Source of the DNA: Isoetes taiwanensis
Taxonomy: Eukaryota > Streptophyta > Lycopodiopsida > Isoetales > Isoetaceae
Direction of reading: 5' to 3'
DNA: 64,000 bases
NCBI GenBank assembly: GCA_021234155.1
Contig: JAJEKV010000010.1
Location: 5,058,871 to 5,122,870 of the forward strand
Shown here piece after piece: positions 52,688 through 58,610 of the stretch. The translations under genes were made by a program, and so were the position numbers. The notes under the pieces were generated by a model, which worked only from the letters and a program-made list of their open reading frames with translations, did not search any database and was not told where the DNA came from. How positions within the stretch are numbered: the stretch's first letter is position 1; each line of letters opens with the position of its first letter.

Positions 52688-53827
52688 GCTACCCATGCAG
52701 GACGCACATCTCCCGGCCTGACAACCAAGAACATGCCTTTCTGGACATCCTGGTATGGGTCGAATATTTCAACGGCATTTTTAGATTTATCCTTTGCAGG
52801 TCCCACGTAAGGTGGGGGAGCATTGCATTCATCAACCATGATTGGATCTGCCTCGGCTACCAGTTCTTGCCTCGTTTGAGGCCAGAAGTTCTTTATTTCA
52901 GTATTGCCAGAGGGAACATCCCTAGGACACGCAACAGATCAGACCAGTAGTCAATAACTTCACTAAACAGACTTTGGAGAGCTAATCGGTATCATGGGCA
53001 CACCATTGTCATCTGCTTTCCACATCCGAATACCCTTACTGGCAACCATTCTCTATGGCCTGGTCTCATCTTATACTACATTAGTGGCCACCCATCCTTC
53101 ATGCAGAACTTGAACAATAAGGGCTCCAAATGACCATCAAGCGATCCTTCTTATCAGAAATGTATCCTTTCACGAAAGACATCCAATCAGGAACCTCTGT
53201 AACAAGGTATGGTGCTGGTGCCTTAGTGCTACATTCTCAAAAGAGTTGCATTAGCTCTGGAATAGTGAGTGCATCCGACCTGCGCATTAAAGTGGAGTAG
53301 CTACCAAAGAGTGCATTAATATCATCATGGATATGTCCAACCATCATAAAACCTAGTTGTATTTGTTCGAAGATACCCAACCAAACAAGATAATAAGAGA
53401 AGAGATATCTATTCTTGTTCTGGCCTGAGCAGTTGTCCAACTGCAAGTAGAGCCTCCTGAGTAGCTTCTTAAGTTGAGCCCGTTGCCGTGGAGGTGCTAG
53501 AAAGTCATGGCCAGTGTTGTTCAGTTTTTTGGTTCTCAACCCCACGCTATTAAGAAGTGTTGATCCCCAAATGCATTCGGGGCAACCTTCTTCTCTCAAA
53601 TGGCCCTAGTTGTCTTCAGAAGTATCCTTCAACGTTTTGATAGCATGATTCAAAGAACCAACATAAAAATTCGAATCATCCTTCCAAAGATCGATTGACC
53701 CAATGCACCTGTGCCATGCCCATGCATCAGTGCACCAGTCACGCTAACTTTTAACCGTTCCCCCCTCCATACTGATTTTACTAGCTTCTCCAGCCTAGGT
53801 ATCATTGTCTTGTTTTGGTCTATTTTA

Positions 53828-55365
53828 TCTTATATTATAATGTTATAGCGTGTTGCATCAAGCCCTAATTTGAGTGGATGAGATCATTTGATTGCATCCA
53901 AAGGCTGAGATTTATTGCACATCCACCGCGATTAGTCATACTTTAATCTCTTACGGGGAAAAGGAAAAGGGAGGAGAAAACTGAAAATTTGAAAGGAAAA
54001 AAGGCAAGGGGAAAAGGTAAAAGGAAAGAAAGGAGAAAAGGGAAGGGAAAAAGGGCATGGGAGAAAGGGGATGAAGGAAAGGATGAGGAAAAGGGAAGGG
54101 AAAAATAGCACAAAAACAAAGAAAGGAAAAGAGAAGCGTAAAAGGGAGAGGGAAAGGGAGGGGAAAAAGGGCACAAGAGAAAGGAAAAGAAGGAGGGGGG
54201 AGGGAGGAGAAAAAGGAAAGGGAAAAGGGGAAATAGGAAAAGGATGAGGAGCAAAGAAGCAAAAAAAGGCCATTGGGAAAGGAAAAGGCAAAAGAAAAGG
54301 GGACGGGAAAGGGAAAAGGGAACCGAGTAAAAAAGGCACGAGGAAAAAAAAGAGAAGAGAGAAAGGGGAAAAGGAAAGGGGGAAAGGGCATGGGAAAAGA
54401 AATAAACAGATACGGTGAAGAAAGGGGAAAAAGGAAGTGAAGAAAAGCATGGAAAAAGGGGGAAGAGTGAAAAGGTGAGGAAAGGGAAAAAGGGAAGAGA
54501 AATATGGCATGGGAAATGGAAAAGGAAAAGGGAAAGGTAAATGGAAAAGAAAATGTCAGGGGAAAAGGGAACGGGAAAGGAAAAAAAAGGGAGAGAGAAA
54601 GGGTGAAAGGGGACTTGGGAAAAATGGCACGAGGAAAAGAAAGGGAAGGGGAAATGTAACGACGAGAAAGGGATGGGGAAAGGGTGGAGAGAGGAGGAAA
54701 AGGGAAGTCCGAAAATGGAATAGGGGAACAGGAAAAGGGCGAGAAGAAGGTAAGGGAAAAAGGGCATGTCAAAAAATGAAAAGAAAAGGGAAGGGGGAAG
54801 AGGTGGAAGGGAACCTGGGAAAAAGGGCACAAGGAAAAGGGGAAGAGAGAGAGGAAAATGGGAGAAGGGGAATAGGGAAAGGGTGAAGAAATGAGAAACG
54901 GGAAGCAAAAAAGAGAATGGAAAAAGGGAAAGAGAAAAAAAAAAAAGGAAGAGGGAAAGGGTGTGAAAAAAACAAAGAGGAAAAATGTTTTGGGTATGGA
55001 AAATAGGGAAAAATGTGGAAGGAAAGGGAAACGAGCACGTCAAAAAGGGGAAGAGGGAAAGGGTGGCGAAATGAGGGAAAGGGACAGAAAATAGTATATC
55101 AGAAAAAGGAAAGTTAAATAGGGTGTCAATAAAGGAAAAAAAAGGAAAGAAAAGAAGGAAACATGTAAGGAATATGAGAAAAAAAGAAAAATGAAAAGAA
55201 AAGTAGGAAAAACGAGGAAAACGGACAAGAAAAAAGTGTAATAGGCAAAGGAAAAGAGAAACGGTATCCATATTTTAACAATGGAGTACTCTCTTCTCTC
55301 ATTACTATAATATATCATTTACAAGTTCTCAGCTTATACCCAGCAACGCTGGGCACCGTTCCTAG
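53828..55365 (+). mobile_element. Non-autonomous Helitron, 1538 bp, filled by a purine tract
   Basis: Starts TC (TCTTATATTATAATG) after an A and ends CTAG before a T. Eight bases before the CTAG is a hairpin, CCCAGC-AAC-GCTGGG (55339-55353). These are the standard Helitron ends and A|T target. Joining the flanks (TATTTTA + TCATGTATG) restores the open frame TIIHD-KIDQNKT of the host gene with nothing missing or added. No RepHel protein is present. The inside is mostly one long purine strand. Confidence 0.88.
53955..55262. repeat. 1.3-kb purine-rich strand
   Basis: More than 90 percent A or G on the plus strand, made of irregular GGGAAAAGG and GGAAAGGGAAA words with rare T and C. It has no fixed period and could form triplex or G-rich structures. 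Long open frames on either strand (Phe/Ser/Pro/Leu or Gly/Lys/Arg only) are composition artefacts. Confidence 0.92.
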
Positions 55366-56640
55366 TCATGTATGATAGTAAGGGCCTGCTCAGGGGAACG
55401 GCGTGACAGTGCTCTCCAAGACCAGTAAAGACTTCTGCAAGAGATCTGGGCTGCCAGGTGAGACTTCCTCTCCATTTGCAACTTTCTTCTCTCCATTGGA
55501 TCTCTTGTCTTTGTCATTTTCTCTTCTATGACAATGCAGGTATTACACTTTGAAAATGCAATTCTTTTGACTATTGCTACCTCTGAATGGTGTTCCTTCC
55601 ATCTGCGCAAGAAAGAGGACAGAGAAACATGCTTTCTAGTCATGTCTATCACACTAGCATCAACCTCTAAATGTATGTTCTTCTTAGTCAAGACAGAAGG
55701 TAGCCTTTTCACATTCTCCCTCACACAATCAACTGTGATTTTGGATCTATGAGGCATAGTTTCTGTGTTCTCGTCTATGTACATAGATAGCACAGCATTA
55801 CCTGCCAGTGTATGAGATCTTATTTTCTTTGACCCGATATTCCCATGCTCAGCTACTCTGTGACCACCCAAGAAAAATTTTCTCCACTTGTAGAAAGTAG
55901 ACATTGGTATGCCGTAGGCCCTATGCCATGCTTTCAAGCAAACTTCCTTATTATTTAATATGACTTTCTTGACCTGCCCATTAAATGAACAAACATCTAG
56001 CATATTTTTAGCAAACGTAGTCTTGTCAGCTGCTTTCATGTTAATCTCATTGAAAGAAAAGCTGGCACAACATCTCCTCAAGCAACACAATGAAGCAAGT
56101 CATGCATTTCTGGCATTTCAGCACAAGCTTGACACCTCATCAATGGCTTCTCTAGCATAGGCTGCAGGCTCATTATGGTAGCAGCTATACAATCTTCGCC
56201 TAATCGCATGGTTGGGATCAGTGAAAACAATCACGCCCGTGGCATATGGGATGTCAGAGCATTCATGCACCAGCGTACATGCACGATCAAGAAGGTCATA
56301 CCTTGAAATGGCCTTAGGAACATCCGCATCACATGGATGAATCTGCTCCACGAGGTCTCGCCATATTATGCGCCTGATCTGTGCTGGGGTGTAGAAAATT
56401 CTTGCACCTCGGTTGCTATGTTAGCTATGTCCTTAATGGGCCATAAAATGAAGGCACCTTTGGAGTCCAATAGCATCCCCTGTTTTCAGATACGGCAACG
56501 GGAGTTCCTCTTCCAAAATACGTTCCAGGGACACAACTGCGCATTCTTCAGGCAAGGGCAAATTGTGATGCTTGACAAAATCATGCACCTTCCCTTCTGC
56601 AACCTTCCTGCCATTGATAAGCATGGACTTCATCTCCATT

Positions 56641-57669: not shown

Positions 57670-58610
57670 TTTTTTTTTTTTTTGAAGGACTTGAGCTTTT
57701 ATTATCTAGAGAAAGTTACAGAGTACAATGGGGACTAATAACTCAGTGGAGAGAATGTCCACCAGAGCAAGACCACCCCACTCAAATACAACATCTATGA
57801 AGAGCAAGCAAAAACTCTAAGTATGAATCTGAAGATAGTGCTCCCAAATATGGCTCTTCACCTCATTAGCAAATTGATGAGCACCTGAATGCTTTGACAA
57901 TTCGTGCTGGGCATCAAGAAGGATCTGTGCATCTGAACAAGCAAGACCTTTGAATATGAGAAGATTCTTTCTTTTCCAAATGGACCAAATGATCCATGCA
58001 GAAGCCAAATGAAATGCTCTTTTTGCCAAATTATCCCAACTACTTGGATAGACTGCTAATAACACCTGCTGGCTATTCAAATTGCAATGAAAGAGGCCTT
58101 GAAGCCACAACCAAGCATGTCTGACATGTCTACACAGGAAAAAGCAATGTTCAATTGTCTCGTCCCTCTGTGCACATAAGGGACAAAGTGCAGATACCTC
58201 TGGACGAAATCTGTGCACTAGAATATTAACGCGCAGACAACGATGAGTGAGTTGCCACCATAAAACAGATACTTTGGGATGGAGTAGTTTATCCCATACC
58301 CATTTCCATACTGCTTTCTTCCGATCCCTAGGAATGACCAAAGGCCACTTGGACGAAGGAGGCAAGACGTCAGCATCAAGCAAGACCTTGTACATGGAAT
58401 TCACCAACTTATCTGCTTTGACACGCTCATGAACTACCCAAGGCTGGGGATCATCCACTTGTGCTACTGGAGGAAGAATTGAAGACACCTTCTGCCAAAT
58501 AGCTCGATCCCACCTTAAAAGGAGGAACTTAGCTCTAAACTCTTCCCATGTCAGCAACTCCTTTGATTATTATACCAATCAGATATCATATGCACACCTG
58601 CTGCTCTCCA
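57670..58610 (-). mobile_element. 5'-truncated LINE with 11-bp target duplication
   Basis: Minus-strand insertion ending in a poly-A tail (T run at 57670-57683). TCGTTTATAAA flanks it at 57659-57669 and 58611-58621. It encodes the last 246 codons of a LINE ORF2 (57817-58557) with VWKWVWDKLLHPKVSVLWWQ, LCPLCAQRDETIEHCFFLCR and WSIWKRKNLLIF, the zf-RVT domain. This frame is still open, so the insertion is fairly young. It is not a copy of the LINE at 36-42 kb. Confidence 0.92.

Follow-up and report, generated by a model that had tools for sequence, protein, structure and literature searches.

The interiors of Helitrons are usually regarded as captured, arbitrary DNA, and arrays of the DINE-TR1 type are clear tandem repeats. 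DINE-TR1 itself is described from Drosophila as a Helitron carrying satellite-like arrays (PMC9659126). The element analyzed here lies in a 64-kb stretch of Isoetes taiwanensis DNA, referred to as the window, and is a non-autonomous Helitron as the term is used in PMC5876387 and PMC4778049. Like the HelibatN families and non-autonomous plant Helitrons, it features TC...CTAG termini, a 3′ hairpin, insertion between A and T and a non-coding interior, and has ends in common with a Rep/Hel element. Unlike these, it belongs to a lineage in which the interior, mostly 1-2 kb long, is ~90% purine on one strand throughout. As in DINE-TR1, an apparently repetitive interior spreads with the element, but here the presumed repeat is degenerate to the point that a 6-7/13-nt trace and the base composition are all that is left of it.

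Far from being a peculiarity of one copy, the purine interior characterizes a lineage of Helitrons. An extreme composition is kept while the sequence nearly randomizes, beside ordinary sister elements with nearly the same ends. Together, lineage and sisters form a natural experiment for asking if rolling-circle-type transposition depends on how readily the travelling strand folds. The lineage also scatters kilobase purine tracts across a plant genome, where their replication cost could be measured. A limited search of titles and abstract openings returned no description of a Helitron family with such a purine interior, and Helitrons go unmentioned in the main text of PMC8566536, on Isoetes taiwanensis, and of PMC10541799.

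Boundaries, target and host of the element

The element spans 1538 bp on the plus strand (53828-55365). It starts with TC, preceded by A (53827), and ends with CTAG (55362-55365), followed by T (55366); its first letters are TCTTATATTATAATGTTATAGC and its last CCCAGCAACGCTGGGCACCGTTCCTAG. A hairpin with the 6-bp stem CCCAGC/GCTGGG and an AAC loop (55339-55353, plus strand) lies 8 nt before CTAG; the most stable 30-nt window scores -6.2 kcal/mol. For comparison with other copies, we searched a genome of 1,658,258,908 bases in 1110 pieces. The 5′ terminal region (LTS; 53828-53956, plus strand) is 82-91% like its relatives, and the best 40 of 1490 matches, the window's own copy included, start at base 1 or 3. 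For the 3′ terminal region (RTS; 55264-55365, plus strand), the best 40 of 473 genome matches, again including the window's copy, all end at the last base. The 28-mer running from the hairpin through CTAG-T occurs 6458 times genome-wide at up to 3 mismatches, compared to 0 for the control.

When the element is removed, the joined flanks translate in one frame (...ALTIIHD-KIDQNKTMIPRLE...). Using these flanks as a 442-nt query, 39 of the best 40 matches among 1037 candidates span the junction in a single alignment, while the last match is to the left flank in the window itself. Four paralogs located elsewhere were read base by base; all four carry the empty site TTTTATCATG, gapless at the junction, and continue insert-free in the frame TIIHDK(M/I)DQNKT(M/T)IPRLE. 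Because these empty sites are gapless and keep the frame, they establish the element boundaries, and they place the insertion in an A|T target without target duplication. The sequence-only reading had called the element a Helitron with an exact, in-frame empty site. Its identity is borne out by the termini, the hairpin position, the target and ends common to many genomic copies, and its boundaries by the 39 junction-spanning matches and four gapless paralogs. Its suggested check, a genome search with the element ends and alignment to empty sites, returned dispersed end-sharing copies as well as empty sites.

The host sequence reads on the minus strand, with an upstream part (55366-56099) that ends in ...TIIHD at the junction and a downstream part (53237-53827) that continues the frame across it and has stops inside. 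An open reading frame (ORF) at 53237-53605 matches DUF7869 (PF25273, E 1.1e-24, Pfam), and the host ‘gene’ represents one copy, interrupted by stops, within this repeat family. The DUF7869 family is large, with 1037 first-look candidates in the genome. Elsewhere in the window, a minus-strand ORF (57817-58566) with a zf-RVT domain (2.2e-13) is probably a LINE fragment.

Purine tracts in the close lineage and its sisters

Of the close relatives examined, 52 of 52 carry a purine tract, defined as at least 80% purine in 100-nt windows, and always with the same strand orientation; its length within the fetched stretches varied from 216 to over 1900 bp. The relatives were picked by likeness to the ends of the window element, and the counts describe this close lineage; the 52 are unique elements across four sets, with six elements belonging to two sets. 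The sequence-only reading had asked whether family members carry purine interiors of different length, and they do. In a 3′-end set (L001-L020, cut from the best 40 of 473 matches) and a 5′-end set (L021-L040, cut from the best 40 of 1490), the tract adjoins the matched end in 20/20 cases each. The shortest tracts in these sets comprise 316 nt (L003) and 579 nt (L032), respectively, with other DNA beyond. All ten elements picked from 84 exact 3′ 28-mer matches (L041-L050) contain the tract, two of them in short form (216 nt in L041, 413 nt in L043). It is likewise present in eight of eight further 5′ matches (L075-L082) beginning TCTTATATT, or TTTTATATT in L080, with the tract of L082 being mostly 65-85% purine. 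L041 is a mosaic with a different 5′ end, an ordinary interior and ~200 nt of purine tract beside the common 3′ end, and may illustrate either the transmission of the tract or its beginnings.

The termini are conserved in these copies. CTAG ends all 20 members of the 3′-end set, each followed by T, and TC is kept in 19/20 members of the 5′-end set, where 15 elements are preceded by A, four by G and one by T (L032, the match without TC). Copies are dispersed, with the same boundaries in different flanks, except for L033 and L034. These two share an upstream flank on different contigs and may stem from a single insertion whose locus is duplicated or redundant. Some copies sit behind older Helitron-like ends: L077 (60/61) as well as L023 and L039 (1500/1501) inserted directly after the terminal CTAG, using a G|T target, and L022 and L028 at most 13 nt downstream of such an end. 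Both arrangements amount to head-to-tail stacking.

Sister Helitrons with nearly identical termini differ in their interiors from this lineage. We fetched ten elements ending GTTACTAG (L051-L060; 2 kb from the 3′ end), which show one difference from the purine lineage in the 3′ 28-mer, and eight starting TCCTATATT...AGGG (L067-L074; 1.7 kb from the 5′ end), which show two differences in the first 40 nt. Unlike in the close lineage, a purine core was absent from all 18 fetched stretches, none of which had a 100-nt window at 80% purine. L067-L074 have a 5′ end of ~300 nt in common; beyond it, the interior is shared in three pairs and differs among the rest, a pattern like that of ordinary Helitrons. 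Two sisters of the TCCTATATT...AGGG type, once extended, proved to close with a similar hairpin and ACTAG after 2761 and 3201 bp.

Composition, turnover and origin of the purine core

The purine core of the window element (53957-55263, plus strand) consists of 88.9% A+G over 1307 nt, with 50-nt bins at 0.80-0.96, and is the sole stretch above 75% or below 25% purine (300-nt windows) within the 64 kb. Of the 1.3-kb strand of more than 90 percent purine that had been proposed, the length and the confinement to one strand stand, while the purine content lies below the claimed value. Base fractions hardly vary among 12 complete elements (A 0.495-0.532, G 0.350-0.387, T 0.051-0.084, C 0.036-0.059). 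Cores show GGGAAAA-like words that recur weakly every 6-7 and 13 nt; autocorrelation is highest at lag 1, followed by lags 13, 7, 6 and 14, with means of 0.478 (lag 13) and 0.469 (lag 7) versus 0.412 (sd 0.018) over lags 1-160. The arrays detected by Tandem Repeats Finder were all short or loose (top scores of 111, for 46 nt x 1.9, then 78 and 60), among them a 13-nt array whose 14 loose copies match at 61%. A pure tandem array is unsupported by these results, and a minisatellite origin, therefore, leans on the weak periodicity. In 19 close pairs, we counted 9-37 indels per 100 substitutions. Most indels of at least 5 nt are not clean tandem copies, and a minority are near-exact ones, for example, 70 nt at 97%. 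Together, periodicity and tandem-copy indels suggest that the core is a degenerate minisatellite, and the 6-7/13-nt spacing together with a few tandem-duplication indels would fit ordinary repeat slippage. The sequence-only reading had thought of possible expansion through rolling-circle replication, along with possible polymerase stalling and triplexes.

Across subfamilies, whose ends differ by roughly 6-24%, six pairs of cores were 57-66% identical, compared to 49-55% in shuffled pairs. Given this near-shuffled identity and the constant base fractions, the cores retain their composition much more faithfully than their sequence. Cores of the most distant subfamilies (similarity 0.57-0.61) barely exceed the shuffles (0.49-0.55), for which reason we infer, rather than observe, a single origin of the tract.

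The explanation that we consider probable is a non-autonomous Helitron lineage with a degenerate, A/G minisatellite-like interior, presumably mobilized in trans by a Rep/Pif1-helicase Helitron. In this model, an A/G-rich tract with units of about GGGAAAA (6-7 nt) and a 13-nt higher order would have arisen once, before the sampled subfamilies split. Slippage, the likely main engine, and small tandem duplications would lengthen and shuffle it, and copying of the element would take it to new sites. The transposase of Rep/Pif1-helicase Helitrons with common termini would provide the activity, and an unfoldable travelling strand may be harmless or helpful to a transposon that moves by its top strand and uses the hairpin as terminator. 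The cautious reading is a repeat-born interior that spreads passively.

A different, rather unlikely view regards the core as a selected functional part, in which an unpaired top strand eases unwinding, circle formation and termination. As a maintained working part, a reading to which we give the same limited credence, the core would change in sequence yet keep a purine content of ~90%, through selection or biased renewal, owing to a single-stranded stage of the top strand in movement; G-quadruplexes may form in it. The purine strand is the top strand of the window element, and the Helraiser studies describe precise junctions in vitro from the top strand only and the 3′ hairpin as terminator (PMC5876387, PMC4778049). 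Mean fold energies are also far below those of sisters in magnitude, at -0.003 to -0.014 kcal/mol/nt for 12 cores versus -0.057 to -0.091 for ten sister interiors, so that predicted core folding is about one tenth of theirs. Within the final 1400 nt, 18 purine elements average 1.4 interior hairpins at -2 kcal/mol or stronger versus 17.4 in 12 sisters, with the best one averaging -2.9 and -6.4, respectively; on this view, the terminator would be left as almost the sole hairpin on the top strand. However, any purine tract is unfoldable, and this property thus follows from composition. Interior hairpins that match the terminator in strength are about equally rare in both sets (three in 18 purine elements, three in 12 sisters), leaving a ‘no decoy’ benefit unsupported, and the terminators of L024, L025 and L037 are themselves weak (-2.0 to -2.8). 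According to PMC5876387, Helraiser moreover depends on donors and circles that are double-stranded, and the RTS is not an absolute requirement; a single-stranded stage may, therefore, be brief.

Substitution patterns bear on the same question. Pooled singletons from groups A5, B3, C3, D3 and E5 (A3, whose elements overlap A5, was left out, and the L026 and L031 slices in A5 may slightly overrun the element end) comprise 265 purine-to-pyrimidine changes (R->Y) on 33104 sites and 100 in the reverse direction (Y->R) on 3616 sites. This amounts to a 3.5-fold per-site bias towards purine, with group values from 2.0 to 11.4, the highest of which (E5) comes from three copies, two of them with a common flank. 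A ratio of 1 is expected under neutral symmetry and about 9 for balance at 90% purine, whereas B3, the largest clean group, shows a 2-fold bias. Copies are less purine-rich than their consensus in five of six groups (B3, 0.884-0.893 versus 0.898), i.e., they decay slowly. Despite up to 15% end divergence, the first 300 core bases remain at 0.88-0.93 purine in 26 of 28 elements, and purine content was uncorrelated with end divergence across these 28 (rho 0.11, p 0.57). Lower values occur in the two elements that have diverged the most (L082, 0.71; L080, 0.75, the latter partly through a later tract start). Singleton bias and the lack of a fall with divergence point towards renewal of purine content; misalignment of low-complexity sequence, which may inflate Y->R, or a purer ancestor could yield the same signal.

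Equally unlikely in our estimate, one Helitron may have captured a genomic purine tract that was then amplified. The varied interiors of the sisters behind the common ~300-nt 5′ end would suit it, as would the combination of another 5′ end, non-purine interior and short purine tract beside the RTS in L041. A donor tract was not seen in genome searches with the element ends and flanks, a type of search that passes over simple repeats. The purine stretch had initially been viewed as cargo; as an acquisition by a single copy, this notion did not hold up, since the core occurs throughout the close lineage (52/52).

We see little prospect for a role of A-looped GGG runs that form G-quadruplexes (G4s) on the top strand and thereby engage a Pif1-type helicase or expose the other strand. 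PMC9964779 describes Pif1 as the more active on DNA G4 and the Hel domains of Helitrons as Pif1-like. Four-GGG motifs number 61 in 12 cores versus ~26 expected from dinucleotide shuffles, but the excess is modest, one core falls below expectation (1 versus 2.2) and such motifs arise unaided in an A/G minisatellite whose units contain GGG. That the 443-codon stop-free frame present on the pyrimidine strand is a gene can practically be dismissed, since composition accounts for it (stop-free frames exceeded shuffles at P<0.10 in 0/12 elements, with P>=0.10 on both strands), frames other than this one are open too and lengths equal those of shuffles, in agreement with the earlier statement that the core is not a gene fragment. 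Deamination of cytosines in an exposed top strand was rejected on the reasoning that its product would be T, not purine, and an assembly artefact is thought unlikely in view of copies of varying length at many sites.

A putative helper type and another purine-leaning stretch

A candidate source of transposase was found among the sisters. L051 and L065 together form a ~7.65-kb Rep/Pif1-helicase Helitron that starts TCCTATATTATAATGTT, a 5′ boundary resting on a pattern match, ends GCCCAGCAACGCTGGGCACCGTTACTAG and lacks a purine core. It differs from the window element at one position in the 3′ 28-mer and one in the first 17 nt. Its domains comprise Helitron_like_N (3.3e-14), PIF1 (8.8e-30 and 1.9e-19) and Pif1_2B (8.4e-18) in broken frames, and an element of this type is likely the kind of helper that mobilizes the lineage. 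Genome-wide, Helitron_like_N profile matches gave 1813 candidates, the best 150 of which were scored. An intact helper with the exact ends of the window element was not found in four extended neighborhoods (C2, C27, C996 and C1065); C996 and C1065 correspond to sisters of 2.76 and 3.2 kb in which no Rep/helicase frame was seen. At C27 (L056/L066), a helicase relic (PIF1 8.6e-31 in L056) lies beside a purine-leaning stretch (about 1.4-1.7 kb in L066) of ~75% purine, with 66-79% in 100-nt bins of its main part. This stretch consists of different, CAAATGAAGCAAATGAG-like words and is perhaps a second purine-rich repeat.
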